DNA of 22,916 nucleotides, taken from a virus. The stretch is from positions 1 to 22,916 of the IMG/VR virus record IMGVR_UViG_3300011261_000081. One strand, given 5' to 3'. A model generated the notes under the pieces. It was not told the DNA's origin. It was given only the letters and a program-made list of their open reading frames with translations, and did no database searches. Numbering within the stretch: position 1 is the stretch's first letter; every line of letters starts with the position of its first letter. Shown in pieces: positions 14,401 through 22,916 of this stretch. The position numbers were made by a program, and so were the translations under genes.

Positions 14401-15056
14401 CTACCGACGCCGCTGCTGCTGATGCTCCGTCGTCGCATCGTGCCGTTGTCGGCCTGGTAGATGAGGTATGAGTTGCCCGTGCCGTCCATCTCGCTGTTGC
14501 GTAGGATGGGGTGACGTGCACCAGGCCCAAGGTAGCGTTCGATGAGGTCGCCGTTCAAGCGCCGCACTTCGCAGATGACATCGGTCTGGACGGTCAGGTT
14601 GCCACGGATGGAGCCCGGCTTACGAATCTCCCAGGCCTGGGCCTTGTAGTCAGGGCCCTCGATGGACTGGAAAACGTGAGCACCGGACTCAGGGGCCGTC
14701 TGGTAGGCTACCTCCGCCTTGTAAGGGATGATGTTGGTGGCTTTGCTGTTCCACGTATCGGTCCCGTCTGAGGCGTCGTAGGTGTAGAGGGTACCATCTT
14801 TCTTGATGGTGACGAGCGTGTCGTCCAGCTCTGCCAGGGCGAGGGGGTTGCCATCGACGACGTAACCTACGGGGAGGCCGGTCTTGCTGAGCTTGCGGTA
14901 CGGGAGGCGCTTCTCAATCTCGTCCTTCTTACGGAAGCGACCGTTCTGGATGTAGTTGCACCCGGGCTCTGCCTGGTGGTACGTGCTGACATCATCCTGC
15001 ATGCCCCCGGAGAAGAGGACGGTCTTGGTGAGATTGCCTGGGTTCGCGGAAGCCAT
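11475..15056 (-). CDS. Large tail nozzle/stabilisation-type protein (tail tubular B-like)
   Basis: This encodes 1193 residues from the ATG at 15056; 15 upstream in-frame codons only re-read the previous gene. The protein is beta-rich. Residues 1-110 (LFSGGMQDDVSTYHQAEPGC, later ALAELDDTLVTIKKDGTLYTY) resemble the opening of podovirus nozzle proteins. Residues about 770-925 contain LYTEGNVLPSDPWPAFDDFV, NRLFAISSEVPGTVYYSKL, DDKVIIFTEREIFAVYD and DGLFFFSTVSNEFHLLSRD, a blade-like repeat pattern typical of the beta-propeller part of such proteins. At 263-271 DGDKDGFFD fits a D-x-D-x-DG-xx-D calcium loop. An acidic patch (YDYEDNDDNNEYDDY, 1089-1103) lies near the end. At 1193 residues it is much longer than T7 gp12 (about 794), so extra domains are likely in 150-600. 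It would form the tail tube tip below the adaptor. Role inferred from position and fold pattern. Confidence 0.8.
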   Translation of the reverse strand: MASANPGNLTKTVLFSGGMQDDVSTYHQAEPGCNYIQNGRFRKKDEIEKRLPYRKLSKTGLPVGYVVDGNPLALAELDDTLVTIKKDGTLYTYDASDGTDTWNSKATNIIPYKAEVAYQTAPESGAHVFQSIEGPDYKAQAWEIRKPGSIRGNLTVQTDVICEVRRLNGDLIERYLGPGARHPILRNSEMDGTGNSYLIYQADNGTMRRRSISSSGVGSLLYSGQSAILDHPLPAQLENFYDPDSGAIGQFLREDGRAGFCDDGDKDGFFDWNVSGSGGAYYWHDGTNCRLGYATPSIVTGTIKTIASNSDYYTFWPLAVHMRYNDAESRYEAGTLTARVTNPEGIGDVLFHQYYWNTVSSSWTTIEFGISLILAGYGANQRPINGDIYWDESNDTWRFACTSIGFEPDWINADNVPAGNDRPIVLAGHIDTGANDFSIGAQLRDHRLVSRVTPSTVTPVSGETSGTCFAVEQWAPFAQPRSNIPQDEFASCPVIIRPHTTVVVELPYNTQDYQVIATLGAGQNKGCNGSAAELTNQLQSAYTRGNDVYITTRNVLQPEDISIHLGDSNATRKRYNVLFPGEASGKVVKLTKATTLTTRRFGDATLFGLAVPSQYDGVAFGEQSVFDQPEIATIQTSATGYEDISYEKLTEGEVDNWYRFTVVVGFADHLGNLHRSAPSTPMWVNGIDLASVSDTDNQVELGVTMPLSAYGTQRRYFVEAYAAIGEAAGQLAGVKSFDVNSGDENTEVVFSNLVYNNNGQQDPIRWSETLYTEGNVLPSDPWPAFDDFVITSNRLFAISSEVPGTVYYSKLLEENIAPEFSAALVISLGRNRKLTGIGAIDDKVIIFTEREIFAVYDTGPDNTGANGDFVIDRLQTTVGCSDSQSVVEIPDGLFFFSTVSNEFHLLSRDLQVHDIGKPVEDTASAITEIYSALVFPAEHEVRWYVESDWQYEYNKRDYLDDPWRTNPPPPSIHRDVEPLPAYPALVYNYHYKKWMVHSNSGARHSVLFQNQATYISATWNVYQSDAALDAWPLESSNKLVVRTPWIRVNQLQSFGRIERLTFLGKYLSCWRDEGGLGTQAGDINIRLRYDYEDNDDNNEYDDYRIRANDGSLGGVKTDYDVDRPNGRMQFDITPGRQKCQAIQVEMYESSTTAIAPHEGDYSIGRGYVIAGMDIEYTPMKGTGANTTHRGSSK

Positions 15057-15415
15057 CAGAATACCCAGAACCTTGCAAAGACGCCATTGGTGTTGGCCCA
15101 TGCCACGAGGTTGTTACCGCGCGAGGACCAGTTGACGTAGGCGTCTGGGGGATTCCCTGGAGGAGCGAGGATTTCCCCGCCGGAGGTTGAGTCGCACTCG
15201 ATGAGGATGCAGCCCAGGTGGCGCCCAATCATCTCGGTGGTGGCTTCGGTGCCGAGGTTCATGGTGACCTCTTTCCCGGCGCCCACGTCGCCTACCGTGG
15301 GGTTCTGAATACCCCCAGCGTTGGCTAGTATCTTATTAGCCGCGCCTGTACGGGTCAATCCCGTCAGCGTCTTGGCTGGTCCACCACCACGTCGTTTGTT
15401 ACGGAGTTTCCCCAC
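15056..15415 (-). CDS. Unidentified neck-region protein, 119 residues
   Basis: I place the start at the GTG at 15415-15413, which overlaps the adaptor stop as TAGTG. The upstream extension of this frame is an out-of-frame reading of the adaptor gene and has an arginine/histidine-rich shadow composition. The protein begins very basic (MGKLRNKRRGGGPAK) and then has a small, apparently beta-rich domain with VTMNLGTEATTEMIGRHLGC (about 51-70) and a C-terminal aromatic stretch (YVNWSSRGNNLVAWANTNGV). Its stop overlaps the nozzle start (TGATG). I do not recognise the family. Between adaptor and nozzle it could be a head-completion, neck or decoration protein; the basic N-terminus could contact DNA or an acidic partner. 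A GTG start and absence of a clear ribosome-binding site suggest dependence on upstream translation. Confidence 0.75.
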   Translation of the reverse strand: MGKLRNKRRGGGPAKTLTGLTRTGAANKILANAGGIQNPTVGDVGAGKEVTMNLGTEATTEMIGRHLGCILIECDSTSGGEILAPPGNPPDAYVNWSSRGNNLVAWANTNGVFARFWVF

Positions 15416-16113
15416 TAGAAGCCCCGGAACCTGTTGTAGCCGTTTGCCTGGGTTGCGGTGCGGATGGTCTTGATGCGCGTGATGGTCATGGACTTGATGT
15501 GGTCCCGGATGCGCTTTTCCGTCGAGGCGCGCTCGACGCTCAGGGCATTGGCGCCAGCCTGGTTCTCTGCCTTGTTGAGGCACTGAACGGCGGCGTCGAA
15601 CACGACCCACTGGTGCCAGAAGTCTGGCCAGGTGAGGGTGTCGGTATCAAGTGAAAGGTTGGGGGCAACCGGAACGTACTGCACGGCAACGTCGCTCGTG
15701 TTCGTGGGCTCCGGGAAAATGAAGAGTTCGCCGCGCCCTTGTTCAAGGCTCCACCGGAGGAAATGGTTGCGCTCTTGGTAGAGGCTGCGTCCGGTTAGCT
15801 GCGTGAGTTGGGCATAGTCCTGGGGGTCGGACTGGATTGAGCGAATGTAGTTGGTGCCGTGCTTTACGTCTACGGACACGAGCTGCGAGAAGTCGCTGGG
15901 GAGCTGGTAGGAGTACGTGCCAATCTTGGTGAGCACGCCTGCGTTCTTTGCAAAGAGCTGTCCATCAGTACCATCGACCAGCACGGAGTGCAGGAGTCGA
16001 ATGGAGTCATTGATGTACGCATCCACTTCAGTATCGGAAACATGCTGACCATCGTTCTCGATGTCGGCCTTCTGTCGTACTTGGTCGCGGAGGTAGCTAA
16101 GGTTCTTTGCCAT
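15415..16113 (-). CDS. Head-tail adaptor (gp11/gp6-like connector)
   Basis: This encodes 232 residues. The N-terminal helices (YLRDQVRQKADIEND then DTEVDAYINDSIRLLHSVL, about 6-46) are typical of phage adaptor rings that bind the portal. A beta-rich middle contains GTYSYQLPSDFSQLVSVDV and the strand VAVQYVPVAPNLSL. The C-terminal helix WHQWVVFDAAVQCLNKAENQ, followed by RASTEKRIRDHIKS, matches the tail-tubular A pattern of a conserved hydrophobic helix and then a charged helix. The protein would sit below the portal and connect it to the nozzle. AGGA lies 4 bases before the ATG. The stop overlaps the next start (TAGTG), beginning a chain of coupled genes that runs to the fibres. Family assignment rests on these patterns and on synteny. 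Confidence 0.82.
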   Translation of the reverse strand: MAKNLSYLRDQVRQKADIENDGQHVSDTEVDAYINDSIRLLHSVLVDGTDGQLFAKNAGVLTKIGTYSYQLPSDFSQLVSVDVKHGTNYIRSIQSDPQDYAQLTQLTGRSLYQERNHFLRWSLEQGRGELFIFPEPTNTSDVAVQYVPVAPNLSLDTDTLTWPDFWHQWVVFDAAVQCLNKAENQAGANALSVERASTEKRIRDHIKSMTITRIKTIRTATQANGYNRFRGF

Positions 16114-17402: not shown

Positions 17403-18152
17403 TTATCCTACAGTGCGTGCCCACAGTTCGGCGGCGGCGGCCTTACGGTCGCCTCCCCCAGCGATAAGGTCTTCAACAGTGGAGGCCTCATCTGTAGCTG
17501 TGAGCGATGGAGTTAGAGTTGGTGTGCTAGGAGTCTCGCTTGGGGGTGCTTCTTCGCTTGTGGTTGAGGACTTCGCGGCGTGCAGGATGTCATACATCTG
17601 CCACAGCTCCGTCTCCGTTTCGCTTAGGATTGTTTCTTCGCTTACTTCTTCACCGGCCTGTTGCTTCGCATGAATCTTCTCGAAGACCTTCTCCTCGAAG
17701 CCAGCGGCTACAATGCCAGGGAAATCTGGGGACTCGCGGAGGGACTCAACAAAGCCCTCTCTCACGGTGCGGAGGCGCGCTTCGCGCTCTTCCGTCTTGG
17801 CTGCCTCTACGACGGCTGCGTCACGCGCGGCCAGCTCTTCCCGTAGTGCGACAAGCTCCTTATACACCTCGGGGTGCTCGGGCTCGCTCGTGGGGACTAG
17901 GGATTGCTCTAGCGCCTGGAGGCGCTCGGCGATGGGGTCAGCGGCGGGGGTAGAGTCGGCGTACAGTGCTTCGAGTTGGCCGGTGACTAGCACGCGGTCG
18001 GGAAGGACTGGGGCGGCCTCTGCTGCCTTGGGGTTGTCGCCACGCACGGCCTCCTTGGAGATGGGTGCACTCACGGTGCGGTCCCATACCTGTGCGGCGG
18101 ACTCGGGGGTGCCTTCTACGGCGGGGATGATTACGTTTGCTTCTTCGGTCAT
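17403..18152 (-). CDS. Probable scaffolding protein
   Basis: This encodes 249 residues: strongly acidic, low in aromatics, and helical in the middle. A long charged helix spans about residues 95-140 (KELVALREELAARDAAVVEA is typical). It is followed by a second helical segment containing FEEKVFEKIHAKQQAGEEVS (about 152-171) and a disordered Ser/Thr/Pro/Glu-rich tail (about 195-225). There is no enzymatic motif. Scaffolding proteins of tailed phages are small, acidic, coiled-coil-rich and sit between portal and major capsid genes; they guide capsid assembly and leave before DNA enters. Function is inferred from composition and position, since scaffold sequences diverge beyond recognition. The ATG follows the portal stop by 9 bases with only a weak ribosome-binding site, so re-initiation after portal translation is likely. 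Confidence 0.78.
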   Translation of the reverse strand: MTEEANVIIPAVEGTPESAAQVWDRTVSAPISKEAVRGDNPKAAEAAPVLPDRVLVTGQLEALYADSTPAADPIAERLQALEQSLVPTSEPEHPEVYKELVALREELAARDAAVVEAAKTEEREARLRTVREGFVESLRESPDFPGIVAAGFEEKVFEKIHAKQQAGEEVSEETILSETETELWQMYDILHAAKSSTTSEEAPPSETPSTPTLTPSLTATDEASTVEDLIAGGGDRKAAAAELWARTVG

Positions 18153-18161
18153 TGGTTTGCT

Positions 18162-20081
18162 TTATTGGCCCATGACTGTTCCGCTGAGGCTAGCCGCTCC
18201 GGGCTGTGCTCCAGTGATGTCCATGGCCGGGGGCTGACCAGGCAATCCAGGGCCCATCCCTGATGCCTGCATCTGCGTTGCTTCTTGTTCCTCGGCGATG
18301 AGGTCCGTCACACTACGCAAGAACTGGTAGAGCAGGTTGACGTTTTCCTCTTCGACGCCCATGGCTTGGGCAAGGTTGATGTTCTTTTGTACGACCTTCA
18401 GTGCGAGGCGGAGGTCCATCGTGGGCTCGGCTTCGGTGTACTTGGCGTCGTCAAGAATCTCTTCGCAGATGCGCTCGATGAAGTCGAGCGATGCGTTCTG
18501 GATACGTGCCTCCGCGTCGAAGTCTGGGATGTCCAGGTACTTGAAGGCGCGGGAAGGCGGAATGATTTGGAGGCCGATAAGCTCCTTCATCTCAGCCAGT
18601 CGCCCACCGAAGGTGGTGCTCAGGGCTGAGGTCGGTGCGGCCTGGATGATGTAGCTGTCCTTCTTGGGGTCGAGGTCGAACTGCTTCCAGTTGACGGCCT
18701 CTACGGTGTTGCGGTCCTTGCGGACGACCGTCTTGAACCCACCGGGGGTACGCTCGTCGAGGAGCTTGCCTGCAATCATCTGTTGCTCGGCAACGCGGAT
18801 GCAGAAGTCCTCGCGGTAGCGGAAGTTGGGGGACAACTCGGTGGACTGAATGTCCACGATGTCCTTGAACGCCTGGCCTGTTTCGCCCTGGGAGCCTGCG
18901 CTCTCCGGGAGGCCCATCGCAACGAGGCGGCTGACTTGCAGCGCCCTCTGCCACTGGACGGCGATATAACTCACCACGTCCTGGGGTACTGAGGGCGGCA
19001 TGACTATCTGAGGCGCGCGGCCCGTGTGGTTGATGATGACGCCCGAGACGTTCCCAAGCTGTCCCTCGTTTATCTCGCCGTCTGCGGGACAAAGGATGTA
19101 CGGCCGGGGCATCGCTGCGATGCACTCCTCGGTGTGGATGACGCTGGTGTTGATGTCGAAGTGGAGGCCGATAAGCTCTTCCACGAGGGCCATACCGAAG
19201 AAGCCCACGGTGGGGTCTTTCTTCCAGTACGAGAAGCTGAAGGGGAAGTCGGTGGGCTCCCAGGGGGAGCAGTCGAGGATGGCACCGTCGATGAAGATGA
19301 CCTTCTTGCCGTCGCCCGCGCCCTGCCAGGAGGGGAGCTTGTAGGCTTCGCACACGTCAACCATGCTGTTGGTGGCGAGGGTTCCATCGTTGTCGTCGGA
19401 GAAGTCTGAGATGCGCTGCTCGGTGAGGCTACCGGCGGCGTGGATGAGCTTCTTGCTCTTGGGGAAAATCTTAGCCAGGCGTCCCCTGTTGGCTGACATG
19501 CGATGATAGAGGTGGGTCGGCTTGCCGGTGGCGGCAGCCTCCGCCGGGTCCACGAAGATGTCCTTCGGGTGGACGCGGAAGTTCTCAATCTCTGGGACCA
19601 CTGGGTGAGGAGCGGTCTTGATTACGCCTAGCCCGTAGACAAGGGAATCGAGGATGCCCGCATCTTCCTTGTCTCGCAGTGAGGTAGCGTGCATTTGGAA
19701 GCGCACGAACTGGCTCATCTGCTTCGAGCGTCGGCGAAGGCTCCAGTTGGCTCCGGCGGGCAAGAACTCGACGGCGATGGCGGGCCGGGTGAGTCTCGCA
19801 TGCACGGCGTCTACCATGACCTTGCAAACATTCAGTGGGACTCGACTGTAGTCGCCGTTGCCTGAGAAGGCGGCGCTGTAGCCGGTCAGATAGTCGTTAC
19901 CGAGGATGTCCCGGTTGGTGTAGAGCGAGGAGTAGGCCGCGTAGCTGTTGAGCCGGTCGCGGTCCTGGTCTACGTAGTACCGGAACAGTCGCGAGAGCTT
20001 AGGAAGTATCTTCGTGGCTGACTTTTCCTCCCACCAGGGGTTTGAGAAGTCAGACTGTTCAACAGAATCGGTATCGGCCAT
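18162..20081 (-). CDS. Portal protein
   Basis: This 639-residue protein would form the ring at the unique head vertex through which DNA is packaged by terminase and later ejected, and on which the neck is built. Supporting signs are an N-terminal helical region (LPKLSRLFRYYVDQDRDRLN, 26-45), the portal-like segment ENFRVHPKDIFVDPAEA (166-182), the stretch GFFGMALVEELIGLHFDINT (about 294-313) and a long helical C-terminal barrel-like part ending in a Gly/Pro/Met-rich tail. Length and position between terL and scaffold/capsid fit well. The codon directly before the ATG is an in-frame TAG, so this is the first possible ATG. It has no free ribosome-binding site because an inverted repeat ends one base upstream. 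Nine bases separate its stop from the scaffold start. Confidence 0.92.
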   Translation of the reverse strand: MADTDSVEQSDFSNPWWEEKSATKILPKLSRLFRYYVDQDRDRLNSYAAYSSLYTNRDILGNDYLTGYSAAFSGNGDYSRVPLNVCKVMVDAVHARLTRPAIAVEFLPAGANWSLRRRSKQMSQFVRFQMHATSLRDKEDAGILDSLVYGLGVIKTAPHPVVPEIENFRVHPKDIFVDPAEAAATGKPTHLYHRMSANRGRLAKIFPKSKKLIHAAGSLTEQRISDFSDDNDGTLATNSMVDVCEAYKLPSWQGAGDGKKVIFIDGAILDCSPWEPTDFPFSFSYWKKDPTVGFFGMALVEELIGLHFDINTSVIHTEECIAAMPRPYILCPADGEINEGQLGNVSGVIINHTGRAPQIVMPPSVPQDVVSYIAVQWQRALQVSRLVAMGLPESAGSQGETGQAFKDIVDIQSTELSPNFRYREDFCIRVAEQQMIAGKLLDERTPGGFKTVVRKDRNTVEAVNWKQFDLDPKKDSYIIQAAPTSALSTTFGGRLAEMKELIGLQIIPPSRAFKYLDIPDFDAEARIQNASLDFIERICEEILDDAKYTEAEPTMDLRLALKVVQKNINLAQAMGVEEENVNLLYQFLRSVTDLIAEEQEATQMQASGMGPGLPGQPPAMDITGAQPGAASLSGTVMGQ

Positions 20082-20082
20082 C

Positions 20083-20128
20083 TATATAGAGGGATTCCGG
20101 CCGCTGTCAGCCGTTTTCCCTCTATATA
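20083..20128 (-). repeat. Long inverted repeat (mRNA hairpin) abutting the portal start codon
   Basis: TATATAGAGGGA (minus strand, 20128-20117) is exactly repeated in reverse complement as TCCCTCTATATA (20094-20083). Between the arms a further CGGC/GCCG stem (113-110 with 101-98 of the 20,000 block) is flanked by 3-base internal loops, so the RNA folds into one extended hairpin with an 8-base tip loop. The second arm ends one base before the portal ATG. The only Shine-Dalgarno-like sequence nearby, GAGGGA, is locked in the first arm. Possible roles are translational control of portal synthesis, an RNase III processing site, or 5'-end protection of the head transcript. It could also be a DNA-binding palindrome. 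Confidence 0.7.
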
Positions 20129-20154
20129 TACCAGAGTGACCTAAAGTTTTGCAA
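20125..20154 (-). promoter_or_regulatory. Candidate sigma70-type promoter for the head gene block
   Basis: On the minus strand TTGCAA (20154-20149) is separated by 18 bases from TATATA (20130-20125). The latter is preceded by TGG, which makes an extended -10 element. Transcription would start near 20122-20118, inside the first arm of the inverted repeat before the portal gene, giving a leader of about 40 bases. A weaker alternative, TTGCCA (20198-20193) with TACATA (20176-20171), lies upstream. The AT-rich block followed by GAGGGAAA also recalls single-subunit phage RNA polymerase promoters, but there is only one copy in the window, so no phage consensus can be built. Confidence 0.45.
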
Positions 20155-20158
20155 CTTT
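20143..20158. repeat. Short inverted repeat over the candidate -35 element
   Basis: AAAGTT (20143-20148) and AACTTT (20153-20158) form a 6-base inverted repeat around a 4-base centre. It covers the TTGCAA hexamer proposed as the -35 element of the portal promoter, so it could be an operator half-site pair or simply an AT-rich promoter feature. Six-base arms also arise by chance; this is a weak call. Confidence 0.25.
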
Positions 20159-20220
20159 CAGGGTACTCGTTATGTAGACCCCCAACGCATTTTGGCAACG
20201 GTAGGGTCCGCGACCATAGA

Positions 20221-20247
20221 GGGGGCCACTCGGGACAGGTGGCCCCC
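20221..20247 (-). terminator. Terminator-like hairpin behind terL
   Basis: A perfect 9-base-pair stem (20221-20229 with 20239-20247, GGGGGCCAC/GTGGCCCCC) with a 9-base loop begins 10 bases after the terL stop codon. In the direction of terL transcription it is followed by TCTATGG rather than a true run of T, so it may be a weak or factor-assisted terminator, or an mRNA-stabilising 3' end. Its position between two gene blocks supports a transcript-boundary role. Confidence 0.5.
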
Positions 20248-20256
20248 GTGTTGCGT

Positions 20257-21756
20257 TTAGGGCTTGATGAGCGTCTGCCAGAAGGGACGGTTCTCGGGGC
20301 CCTTCTCATCGAAGACCTCCTTGCGCCGCTCGGCTATCGAATGACGCATCGCGTCGTCGCCCATCATCACGCCCTGGCCGTAGGCGGCGGACTTCCATGT
20401 CCTCACCTTAGTGTAGGCATAGCGGAAAGAGTCTGCACAGTGGTCCGGGTATCCGTCCCCTCTTTTGACGCGCCTCGCGCCGGTCGGGCTCATCTTTCCG
20501 TCCCAGATTAGTATGGCCATCTGCAATCGGAGGTTGGCGGTGGGCTCCTCTACGAAGTAGAGTCTGTCCGCTTGAATGTCCGCATTGATGATTTGGATTC
20601 CCATGTCCACGGACCCGTACCCCTTCTTGACGGGCTGGATGGGTAGGGTGGGGTGGGTGTCCTTCCACTGGGCCACAGGGGCGGCTCCCTGGCCGCCTGT
20701 GTCCACGATGACCGTGTGGCACGGGTACTGGTCCATCAGGGCGCTGACCTCATCCCCTGCGTCCAGCGTGGTGAGCTGCTTCTCGTAGCTCTCCAGGACG
20801 TAGGTGGCCTGCACGTCGCGGCTCGTCGCGAGCATGGAGAACGACCAGGGGTCTTTGGTCCCGACATCGACGCCGAGGATGTACCGCCAGTCGTGGGCCC
20901 GCTCCATGGGGAACCTGGGGACGACCATGCTGTCCTTGTTGTAGTAGCACAGCCCCTCGGTGTCCCGGACCCATTCGCCCAGGTACTCGCGGCGGAAGGC
21001 GGGGCTCGCGTCGGTCCAGTTGTTTGCTGCCTTATGCACGCGGTACTGGTGCTCAACGTCTGGAATGTAGGGGTTGTCACGCATTAGCCACTTGTGCTGG
21101 CTCCAGCCCATGAGCTGGTCGCCGTCGTCGCCCTTGAACATCTCTCCGCCACCGTGAACGATGTCGTAGAAGGGCCCGGCGCACGCGGCGCCTGGCGTAC
21201 CCGTGATGAGGATGGGGGCCTTGTGAGTGACGGTCGCGGGAAGGAGAATCTCCCGGATGAGCTTATACATGTCGGTGCCGAAGTTCTGGGCCTCATCGAG
21301 GATGACCAGGTTCAACGTCGAGCCGATGCCACGAATCTTGTCCATCTCGCGGAGCGAGCCAGCGCCGAACACCTTGATGGTCGAGCCGTTGGGCAACCGG
21401 ATGTCGGAGGTGGTCTTGATGAACTCCAGCCCCAGGCCGTGCTCCTCGTTGAGCGCCATGAGGGGCGGCCAGATGATGTACTGGGCCGAAGCCCTGTTCA
21501 TGTTGATGTAGACCGGCGTCGAGCCAGGCGTTTCTACCGCTGCCCGCAAGGCTATAATCGCTGCGGCGTGGCTCTTCCCGCTCTGGCGCGAGCAACAGGC
21601 GACCTTGAACTGGGCCGGGTCGTTCGCGAACTTCTGCTGCTCGGGGTGCAGGAGCTTGTCGAAGTCGAGCTTCTCCAGCGCCGCACGCTGTTTGGCGTAC
21701 AGCTCAAGGAGTTTCTTTCGCTGCGCGAGTAGCTCTACTGGGGTGCTATCTGCCAT
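20257..21756 (-). CDS. terL: Terminase large subunit (packaging ATPase and nuclease)
   Basis: This 499-residue protein is the motor that pumps DNA into the prohead through the portal and cuts the concatemer. The N-terminal ATPase has an adenine-binding-like HPEQQKF (37-43), a Walker A-type loop SRQSGKS (56-62), Walker B LVILDEAQ (150-157, with D154 and E155) and a coupling motif ITGTPG (184-189). The C-terminal RNase H-like nuclease has candidate metal ligands in ILGVDVGTKD (D297), VIVDTGGQG (D352) and GYPDHCADSF (D438 and/or D442). Length and motif order are normal for the family. The ATG lies inside the end of the acetyltransferase gene (11-base overlap), with a weak upstream AGGA. After its stop comes a GC-rich hairpin and a non-coding region, so it closes the packaging operon. 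Confidence 0.96.
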   Translation of the reverse strand: MADSTPVELLAQRKKLLELYAKQRAALEKLDFDKLLHPEQQKFANDPAQFKVACCSRQSGKSHAAAIIALRAAVETPGSTPVYINMNRASAQYIIWPPLMALNEEHGLGLEFIKTTSDIRLPNGSTIKVFGAGSLREMDKIRGIGSTLNLVILDEAQNFGTDMYKLIREILLPATVTHKAPILITGTPGAACAGPFYDIVHGGGEMFKGDDGDQLMGWSQHKWLMRDNPYIPDVEHQYRVHKAANNWTDASPAFRREYLGEWVRDTEGLCYYNKDSMVVPRFPMERAHDWRYILGVDVGTKDPWSFSMLATSRDVQATYVLESYEKQLTTLDAGDEVSALMDQYPCHTVIVDTGGQGAAPVAQWKDTHPTLPIQPVKKGYGSVDMGIQIINADIQADRLYFVEEPTANLRLQMAILIWDGKMSPTGARRVKRGDGYPDHCADSFRYAYTKVRTWKSAAYGQGVMMGDDAMRHSIAERRKEVFDEKGPENRPFWQTLIKP

Positions 21757-22273
21757 CTTCCCAGTGTTGTTCCTGGGAGGTGTACTTGAACCACGGCCAG
21801 AACACGAGGTTCATGTCGCGCGCCGCGTTCCAGATGCCCTGGTTCTTCACCGCGCTGTTCGTGAACGTGTAGAGGATGTTCTGGTCCTCCTTGATGGCGA
21901 AGTCCTTCTTGAATCGTTCTACTAGCGCGCTAGCGACACCCTGGCGCCAGTCGCGCTTCTTGACCTGCATCCAGTGGAGGTAGGCCACGTCCACGCCACC
22001 CCAGGAGCGAACCTCGCCGCACAGGTAGCCACGGATGAGGTGCGGGGCCCCCGGTTGGTGGCAGATGTAGAGCGCGCCGTTCTCGCTCGACCGGCTGATA
22101 AGCTCGTCGAGGATGAGGTGGGCGTGCCTGAAATATTCATCACGAATCATGCCTGGGCTGTTCATCTCTGGGGAGCGTTCCCAGGTGAGCTGCCACGAGC
22201 TGAGGATGTAGTCGAGGTCGCCCTCTTCGGCTGGCCGGATGTCGAAGGCACCCTTGGCGTTCACTATGTTCAT
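21746..22273 (-). CDS. GNAT-family N-acetyltransferase-like protein
   Basis: This encodes 175 residues. The start has the classical GNAT opening, FDIRPAEEGDLDYILSSW (residues 10-27), a beta strand followed by helix 1. A strand (VAYLHWMQVKK, 96-106) leads into an acetyl-CoA-binding-like loop, RDWRQGVASALVERF (107-121), where Q111-G112-V113-A114 stands in for the usual Q/R-x-x-G-x-G/A; the first position is degenerate (W109). The C-terminal part AVKNQGIWNAARDMNL (141-156) matches the late helix of the fold. Such enzymes transfer an acetyl group from acetyl-CoA to an amine; the acceptor here cannot be told. Its start overlaps the previous stop by 4 bases and its end overlaps terL by 11, so it is made together with the packaging proteins. 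GGAG sits 8 bases before the ATG. Catalytic activity is not certain. Confidence 0.82.
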   Translation of the reverse strand: MNIVNAKGAFDIRPAEEGDLDYILSSWQLTWERSPEMNSPGMIRDEYFRHAHLILDELISRSSENGALYICHQPGAPHLIRGYLCGEVRSWGGVDVAYLHWMQVKKRDWRQGVASALVERFKKDFAIKEDQNILYTFTNSAVKNQGIWNAARDMNLVFWPWFKYTSQEQHWEDGR

Positions 22274-22707
22274 CGGAGTTTCTCCAGGGCGCTTCTTACG
22301 CCCTTGTTGCCGGGGTACATGGCGAGTACGTCGTCTATTTCCATGCCGGTGTCTACGAGGCCCCTGGCTATCTCCACGGGGCCCATGTCGTCAGTCTTCT
22401 GCTTGGCTTGGATGCCGCACAGGGTGGCCTCCAGCTTGCGGATGGTGTCGAGGAGCGACATGAAGCGCGACTCCTCGGTGGGGTCCAGCTCTTCGCCGTC
22501 CTCCAGTTTCACCTCATACTTGTTCAGTGCCAGGTTCGTCAGGTAGATGCTGCGTTCAAGCTGGGCCTCGGTCGTGAGGCGCTTGTACGTGCTCTGGACG
22601 GTGGGCGGCTGCTTGAGCCGCTCCTTCTTGGCTGCGAGGGCCTTCATCACCGTGGTGGCGCCCTCAATGTCTCTGCGTCGGCTTTCGCCGTCCTGGTAGT
22701 TGCTCAT
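22270..22707 (-). CDS. Hypothetical helical protein, candidate small terminase subunit
   Basis: This encodes 145 residues, predominantly charged and apparently all-helical, with no signal peptide or membrane segment. Two parts stand out: a central helix pair (EESRFMSLLDTIRKLEATL, about residues 79-97) and a C-terminal region (VEIARGLVDTGMEIDDVLAM, about 111-130) that could form a compact helical domain. The ATG is preceded by GGAG with a 5-base spacer, a good ribosome-binding site. The stop overlaps the next start (ATGA), so it is coupled to the acetyltransferase gene, and terL follows. A small helical protein just upstream of terL is the usual place for the DNA-recognising small terminase, which forms a ring on phage DNA and delivers it to the large subunit. 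That assignment is inferred from position and fold class only; no family signature was recognised. Confidence 0.8.
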   Translation of the reverse strand: MSNYQDGESRRRDIEGATTVMKALAAKKERLKQPPTVQSTYKRLTTEAQLERSIYLTNLALNKYEVKLEDGEELDPTEESRFMSLLDTIRKLEATLCGIQAKQKTDDMGPVEIARGLVDTGMEIDDVLAMYPGNKGVRSALEKLR

Positions 22708-22751
22708 AATCGCTCCGGCCCTTGCTGGGCCTCCGCTGGGGTGGAGAGGGA

Positions 22752-22916
22752 CTAGCCTATGGCCTGGCCCTCGGGAAGTTCATTCGCGAACTGGGGGGCG
22801 CCTGTGCGCCGCTCAATGGACTGCCGGCCCAACTTGTCGTGGCGGGACTCCCGGGTGTTCAATACACCCCCCTCGCCCTCCCCGCCCCGGCTCCAGGCGT
22901 CCATCTTGCGGAGCCA
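22752..22916 (-). CDS. 3' end of an unidentified gene (partial at window edge)
   Basis: The minus-strand frame is open from the right edge of the window to a TAG stop at 22754-22752, giving 54 residues of a protein whose start may lie outside. The visible part is charged and glycine-rich, with a Gly/Glu-rich stretch followed by RESRHDKLGRQSIERR, and ends in NELPEGQAIG. It has no recognisable domain, membrane segment or catalytic motif. Synteny is the main support: it reads in the same direction as the packaging genes and ends 44 bases before the next start codon. An in-frame ATG at residue 5 could make this a complete 50-residue gene, but no good ribosome-binding site precedes it. It may belong to a packaging or DNA-metabolism gene; I make no functional claim. 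Confidence 0.55.
   Translation of the reverse strand, partial: WLRKMDAWSRGGEGEGGVLNTRESRHDKLGRQSIERRTGAPQFANELPEGQAIG

Follow-up and report, generated by a model that had tools for sequence, protein, structure and literature searches.

A candidate divergent control region with an exchangeable site and a conserved structured RNA between the portal and terminase genes of an uncultured phage lineage

The region between the terminase gene terL and the portal gene of the window (the whole stretch of DNA analysed, a virus record of 22,916 bases, here called W) is probably a divergent control region that combines an exchangeable phage-specific site with a new small RNA, as judged from sequence comparison. 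The portal-like protein gene (639 amino acids, 18162 to 20081, minus strand) was assigned from its position and from the call of an earlier note on this DNA; its product has no Pfam or PHROG match. A gap of 175 nt separates it from terL (499 amino acids, 20257 to 21756, minus strand), which matches phrog_2 with an E value of 1.1e-41. The window portal had no match among 50,697 phage records (tblastn, E ≤ 1e-5), and a portal profile search of genome contigs yielded no relative. Relatives were recovered by a scan with the single portal sequence (8 loci) and with a nine-sequence profile (29 loci, one per contig). The 29 relatives and the window provide 30 terL-portal gaps, 23 of them distinct. 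Based on portal identity and gap layout, these were grouped into a W clade of eight gaps (W, L008, L104, L105, L106, L107, L108 and L113), a distant clade of 11 rows (L083, L115, L116, L118, L120, L121 and L123-L127) and the remainder (L109-L112). L104, L105, L106, L107 and L108 correspond to the contigs L001, L002, L003, L004 and L005, respectively.

The inverted repeat at the portal start codon

The earlier note had described a 12-base-pair inverted repeat whose second arm ends one base before the portal ATG, and the sequence bears this out. The arms TATATAGAGGGA (20083-20094) and TCCCTCTATATA (20117-20128) pair perfectly over 12 bp and enclose an inner CGGC/GCCG stem, the whole feature extending from 20083 to 20128. 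Along the portal strand, a single G separates the second arm from the portal ATG. This is the single instance of a perfect 12-bp inverted repeat with a spacer of 3 to 30 nt across the whole 22.9-kb window, and a repeat of the same type was present in one of 60 dinucleotide shuffles of the window. The plus strand of 20083-20190 folds with a z-score of -5.3. The repeat is identical in L002, and L003 keeps the core AGAGGGA/TCCCTCT. In the predicted plus-strand folds of the W clade, each of the eight gaps shows a stem whose outer edge is 1 to 6 nt away from the portal start codon. The inverted repeat next to the portal ATG is non-random, and the spot beside the ATG appears regulatory. To this extent both the observation and the interpretation of the earlier note stand; the promoter and the ribosome-binding site that it placed here, and the start-site-dependent translational switch built on them, are not supported.

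The promoter had been described as an extended -10 firing into the repeat. A sigma70 consensus scan of 18000-22916 on both strands found no site, and the extended -10, TGGTATATAT, is retained in L002 and missing from L003. TATATATA is readable on both strands because it is part of the palindrome. A possible -35, TTGCAA, which is our own guess and not that of the earlier note, is missing from L002. The top promoter score on the portal strand of the gap (9/12, CTGACA-16-TATATA) belongs to a distinct site and is equalled by 11% of shuffles. The Shine-Dalgarno-like GAGGGA that the second arm was thought to mask (minus strand, 20122-20117) ends 35 nt upstream of the portal ATG, which is too far for a portal Shine-Dalgarno sequence, paired or unpaired. 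No Shine-Dalgarno word occurs within 20 nt of the portal ATG, so that the arrangement characteristic of a sequestered ribosome-binding site, with a paired Shine-Dalgarno sequence near the start, is absent. Such a word is missing from this distance in 5 of 11 genes examined, namely those for the portal, the scaffold-like protein and proteins of 307, 775 and 824 amino acids (the count leaves out the 1208-amino-acid gene, whose start is unclear). A portal gene without a Shine-Dalgarno word is thus unremarkable in this phage.

Given this distance, the other genes lacking such a word and the absence of the extended -10 from L003, it is improbable that a portal-strand hairpin masks translation initiation and that start-site choice tunes the portal dose, as the earlier note proposed, even though a stem lies beside the portal start codon in all W-clade gaps and the portal strand gives the better fold of the 5' domain in 6 of 8 members of this clade. 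The strong fold of the whole gap on the portal strand (z -6.7) also fits such masking. Together with the preference of the 5' domains, and compared with a z-score of -2.9 for 20134-20261 on the plus strand, it counts against divergent control, and a leader hairpin may form on the portal strand in the W clade. Portal translation set by a hairpin whose length depends on the 5' end of the transcript is further unsupported by L001 and L008, whose leaders show no significant similarity to that of the window (see below). Moreover, these sites also occur next to a further gene and where no start codon is present; the recurrence of the site at a second late gene is not predicted by a switch acting on the portal only.

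A structured RNA on the strand opposite to the portal

A structured RNA was found opposite to the portal in all 23 distinct gaps; in the window it occupies 20177-20261 on the plus strand. Its P1 domain (20209-20255), defined by covariation, pattern scan and the covariance model R1, consists of helix P1a (20209-20214/20250-20255), an internal loop CATAGA/GT, helix P1b (20221-20229/20239-20247) and the loop TCGGGACAG (20230-20238). P1a, a CATAGA-like internal loop, P1b and a terminal loop are present in every gap, the terminal loop being TCGGGACAG in 12, TCCGGGCAGG in five and a variant in six of them. Immediately upstream lies the P2/P3 domain (20177-20208, plus strand), recognised by covariation of helix P2, whose arms are GACCC (20177-20181) and GGGTC (20204-20208). 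P1 is followed by a short T-containing tail, TTTAGG (20256-20261, plus strand), which runs into the terL stop codon of the other strand. Hairpin B (20134-20168, plus strand), a predicted fold, may form the 5' part of the RNA; its position matches that of hairpin P4 in the distant clade, and a related stem was seen by eye in L002 and L003.

In a MAFFT alignment of the 23 gaps, 94.4% of cells were paired, compared with a mean of 67.8% in shuffles, which ignore relatedness. Double changes occurred in 18 of the 20 pairs and amounted to 105 double-change cells (31.4 in shuffles). The covariation value was 0.697, against 0.229 for shuffled alignments and at most 0.172 with the partner slid. P2 is out of register in some alignment rows, which lowers its counts. 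The compensatory changes exceed both the shuffle and the slide controls, as is characteristic of a structured RNA family. RNAalifold predicted P1 unaided, and did not predict P2. Read on the plus strand, the wobble pairs comprise 35 G.U and 8 A.C, and because G.U exceed A.C the RNA strand is taken to be the one opposite to the portal. The core folds better on the plus strand in 18 of the 23 gaps, a comparison in which P2 is misplaced in several rows and the same segment was used for both strands. These patterns indicate that the plus strand of the window encodes a structured RNA running opposite to portal and terL.

Other roles for the helices were considered and rejected. P1 and P2 had at first been assumed to be a leader RNA of the portal strand, which was dropped on the wobble strand test. 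P1 as a minus-strand terminator of terL is disfavoured by its conserved loop and by the wobble pairs, which favour the other strand, and genes or tRNAs intervene between P1 and terL in relatives. A loop-loop pseudoknot with a downstream GGGG was inconsistent across sequences when compared by eye. In the window AACGCA (20184-20189, in P3) is complementary to TGCGTT (20252-20257), which overlaps the 3' arm of P1a. The two words are paired in the minus-strand fold, and by eye similar words occur in L001 and L002 and not in L003 or L107; their pairing is a possible alternative fold.

A pattern scan of viral contigs for the conserved loop and tail returned 93 stretches. Those with complementary arms fell in contigs already in the set or in two added groups, L060/L083 and L093/L097/L100, where they likewise lie between terL and portal, with the exception of L018, L040 and L047, which are chance-like matches with 7 of 9 pairs. 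Model R1 gave one match in each of 41 portal-locus sources, 23 of which had been used to build it, and exactly one match per record in all 11 records searched whole. Its score in the window, whose row is among the sequences building R1, was 92.8 bits. Pattern-fetched loci were tested with R1 in sets of 80, 67, 80 and 85. Among the matches listed, those above 70 bits were contigs already in the set and one new contig, L307, in which the RNA adjoins a portal gene (65% identity); two weak matches (19.3 and 16.9 bits) are chance-like. The pattern scan of genome contigs returned at least 120 stretches, and none of the 80 tested with the model was a good match (best 16.9 bits). Scanning the loci against Rfam release 15 at gathering scores gave no match to the RNA, and at E ≤ 10 the window segment 20040-20320 matched only weak, unrelated families. 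The RNA is absent from Rfam release 15 and new to that collection, and the titles and abstract openings of the literature surveyed contain no description of it.

A phage-specific site and the exchange of leaders

The hairpin at the portal ATG can be described as two inverted, outward-facing copies of a phage-specific site of about 20 bp, one at the portal ATG and one facing the RNA, and the palindrome would then exist because two outward-facing copies are present. Both copies were located by a scan in which the 20 nt abutting the portal ATG of each record served as query and five single-base shuffles of each genome as null. In the window, site A (GCCGGAATCCCTCTATATAG on the minus strand, 20082-20101) abuts the portal ATG, and site B (20110-20129, plus strand) is an inverted copy with four mismatches that faces the RNA. 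As shuffles of the window average 1.0 copies at ≤6 mismatches, this pair was judged together with L002, which carries five copies at 0 to 5 mismatches where its shuffled genomes average 0.6 at ≤6. Copies with their mismatches in brackets numbered five in L005 (0, 0, 3, 4, 4), five in L002 (0, 2, 2, 4, 5), four in L004 (0, 2, 4, 5), three in L008 (0, 3, 4), two in W (0, 4) and two in L001 (0, 3), with one further L001 copy at six mismatches. Thus L005, L002, L004 and L008 hold 3 to 5 copies at ≤5 mismatches, where shuffled genomes average 0.0 to 0.8 at ≤6. Against divergent control, the scan of L003 was at chance (five found, 4.2 expected at ≤6), and the distant-clade records showed the portal copy and chance-level matches, even in a record of 41.9 kb. 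L112 and L307 have one copy each.

In L005, L002, L004 and L008, two of the repeated copies per phage lie at gene starts and the others elsewhere. In all four, the copies at the portal and at the first late gene stop precisely at the ATG. The copy that faces the RNA reaches the first bases of P2 in L004, L005 and L008 and, judged by eye, in L113; for W and L002 the distance to P2 downstream is about 47 nt, a stretch that contains hairpin B. Neither a start codon nor P2 follows several of the copies (L002 at 1704, 2106 and 5547, L005 at 4990 and 5400, L004 at 325 and the window at 20110), which counts against divergent control. In L002 the arm of the portal leader recurs at 2107-2129, and its inverted partner (2201-2218) directly precedes the first-late-gene ATG; L003 has a similar but less exact pair at 2156 and 2247.

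The leader moves as a module. W and L001 share 97% identity at the terL end and 98.6% in the portal gene, and the 95-nt leader between them (20082-20176) is without a significant match, apart from one 17-nt match elsewhere (E 0.09). In contrast, W and L002 share 92.6% of the leader and 79-82% of the flanks. The portal proteins of L001 (99% identity) and L008 (100% over residues 1-315) are nearly those of the window, yet neither leader has significant similarity to the window leader. The earlier note had suggested comparing related leaders for paired changes in the two arms. Independent variation of the arms was not seen and they do change together, but by exchange of the whole site.

The specificity of the site mostly recurs within a genome. 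The portal leader scores highest against the first-late-gene leader of its own phage in four of the five cases, at 32 to 44 (null: 95% = 19, 99% = 22, maximum 29). The exception, L003, counts against divergent control, since its own two leaders score 16 and its first-gene leader scores 26 with the portal leaders of L002 and W; a motif search nevertheless found AGAGGGA pairs at both L003 leaders. L004 and L008 share part of the site (score 27). The window ends before its own first-late-gene leader, and its portal leader scores 36 with the first-gene leader of L002 and 13 with that of L008.

The factor that reads the site is putative. The 145-amino-acid protein and the GNAT-like protein of W are 100% and 99.4% L008-like while its site is L002-like, and these proteins are therefore unlikely to be the cognate factor. 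A T7-like promoter read by a phage RNA polymerase was considered and is retained here as a likeness in layout. The ORF list of a 44.4-kb record contains no recognisable single-subunit RNA polymerase, and PF00940 matched none of 12 records, a search in which the control was likewise without a match. A pac or cos site of the terminase flanking terS-terL is disfavoured, because the 145-amino-acid gene and terL of W are L008-like and the site L002-like, an argument limited by the first late gene being only partly inside the window. That the 145-amino-acid gene is terS is a possible guess. The GNAT-like gene (21746-22273, a weak assignment under the Pfam cut-off) lies between the 145-amino-acid gene and terL, and has relatives in L002-L005 and L008.

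Stems for RNase III-type processing, or for stability, between the terL and portal mRNAs were considered as another explanation of the hairpins. They would account for long stems of changing sequence at a gene border, the longest being on the portal strand in L008/L104 and L107, but they would not require a phage-specific sequence with further copies in the genome, and the wobble pairs of the P1/P2 part favour the opposite strand, which makes this explanation very unlikely.

All four phages compared share a conserved non-coding block some 200-330 nt ahead of the first late gene. It was located at L002:1890-1980, at L400:5180-5265 and in the corresponding aligned segments of L003 and L004 (columns ~205-300 of alignment A5). 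It consists of ACCCCC..GGGGT, TTCCCCCT and then GAGYGGYAGCGAGTA.C.CAC.CTCTCCCCTG, and in L002 and L005 a convergent pair of phage-specific sites encloses it. The block may be a second RNA or an origin or packaging site.

Transcription of the RNA, its possible roles and related systems

In the distant clade, the RNA strand carries a sigma70 match of at least 9/12 in 11 of 11 rows and of at least 11/12 in nine, three of which are perfect, and the -10 ends 31-42 nt upstream of P2. On the portal strand of these gaps, promoter scores are 6-9/12. The 5' hairpin P4, with an ACC-containing loop, occupies the interval between the -10 and P2 in most gaps of this clade; its single-sequence z-scores are modest (-1.0 to -4.5). 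Scores on the RNA strand of the W clade, L109-L112 and L307 are 7-9/12 and are equalled by 10-83% of shuffles, which speaks against divergent control. In the window, the weak sigma70-like candidate for the RNA (20104-20132, plus strand) is composed of CTGTCA (20104-20109), a 17-nt spacer and TATACC (20127-20132). It scores 8/12, which 54% of shuffles reach, and its -10 ends 44 nt before P2. A further point against divergent control concerns the T run of an intrinsic terminator: the P1 stem, present in 23 of 23 gaps, is followed by at least four T in the next six nt in only 10 of them; the window has three.

A conserved small ORF follows the RNA on the same strand in 13 of 23 gaps (L109-L112, L115, L116, L118, L120, L121 and L123-L126). 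It encodes 52-69 amino acids with the pattern M.L....Y.RARRVAKLYNGT..PR..QIEAM..LQ.FI and lies directly downstream of the RNA; the L006 version has no Pfam match. The ORF is missing from L104, L105, L106, L107 and L127; in W and L008 the only ORF there, of 56 amino acids, lies antisense within terL, and the 127-amino-acid ORF of L108 is unrelated. In L083 and L113 the contig end cuts the region downstream of the RNA. ARAGORN identified tRNA-His and tRNA-Phe downstream on the RNA strand in L004/L107. In the latter, two to three tRNA genes lie antisense between terL and the RNA (L107:3570-3802, minus strand), and the third, found by Rfam only, abuts the RNA tail.

The RNA could be a cis-acting 5' leader of this small divergent ORF (M.LS..ELY.RARRVAK.YNGT), persisting as a relic in phages without it. 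In the 13 gaps an ATG ORF begins 9-36 nt into the stretch searched after P1, by eye 10 of the 13 have a Shine-Dalgarno-like word, and P1 lies between promoter and ORF wherever the promoter is strong. However, W, L008, L104-L107 and L127 are without the ORF and L108 has an unrelated one, tRNAs take its place in L004/L107, and L127 retains an 11/12 promoter. In these eight sequences, 98.1% of cells were paired (73.8% in shuffles), with 34 double-change cells compared with 10.6. Since the RNA covaries where the ORF is missing, it is independent of that ORF, and a role as its leader is unlikely. The RNA may instead act on its own, because it is retained and covaries where the small ORF does not follow.

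The simplest mechanism for the divergent control region would be a single phage-specific factor that controls transcription of the portal, the first late gene and the RNA. The site would be a transcription control site, either an unusual promoter or its operator, read by this factor. One copy would set portal transcription, with a start at the ATG or just upstream of it, and the second copy that of the RNA, so that both late units and the RNA would be controlled together; in relatives, the site of the same phage recurs at the start of the first late gene. The palindrome would be a by-product of back-to-back sites rather than a stem masking a ribosome-binding site. Should this hold, a conserved RNA gene that is missing from Rfam release 15 lies between terminase and portal in a lineage of uncultured phages, and the specificity of the control site is swapped as a module of about 95 nt between otherwise near-identical phages. 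As this specificity would mostly stay matched within a genome, the search for its cognate regulator and for the partner of the RNA would be open to direct testing.

A trans-acting role of the RNA in head assembly or DNA packaging, similar to that of pRNA but in a phage with a conventional TerL, is a long shot. Its position between terL and portal in every gap found and its strongly conserved loops would fit such a role, and the 5' region together with the portal control site would then make up a code that is specific to each phage, can be exchanged and marks the first late gene as well. The pRNA of phi29 (Rfam RF00044) is a small, structured, phage-encoded RNA encoded near packaging genes, and in these respects the present RNA is alike. 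In contrast to it, the pRNA model matched neither the scanned loci at gathering scores nor window 20040-20320 at E ≤ 10, and the TerL of this phage has terminase matches.

The region also resembles other known systems, and no membership in any of them, or in the pRNA family, is claimed. GP20-a and GP20-b are candidate structured RNAs beside phage structural genes that came from comparative genomics. They share with the present RNA the covariation and the adjoining portal gene, whereas the RNA here is on the strand opposite to the portal and matched no family of Rfam release 15. T7-like phages use phage-specific promoters, which the site resembles as a directional element of about 20 bp with several copies per genome, a common layout, a core that differs between relatives and TA-G ends at two gene starts. 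Unlike in these phages, only 3-5 copies were found in records of 4 to 24 kb, and no single-subunit polymerase was recognised. Phages also contain divergent operator/promoter palindromes; the likeness lies in inverted pairs of specific sites between divergent units that are exchangeable among close relatives. The difference is that the cognate protein here is putative, the 145-amino-acid and GNAT-like proteins of W being L008-like and its site L002-like.

Two further features of these genomes were noted. At 15102-15414 of the window, between the adaptor and the 1208-amino-acid gene, the minus strand is covered solely by an ORF of 184 amino acids (15056-15610), which overlaps both neighbouring genes; L002 and L003 carry an ORF of 124-125 amino acids there. 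The two ends of record G001, which has 44,406 bases, are L397:1-1404 and the terminal part of L399; both lie inside one gene, which encodes an 853-amino-acid homologue. This points to a nearly complete, circularly permuted genome of some 44 kb.
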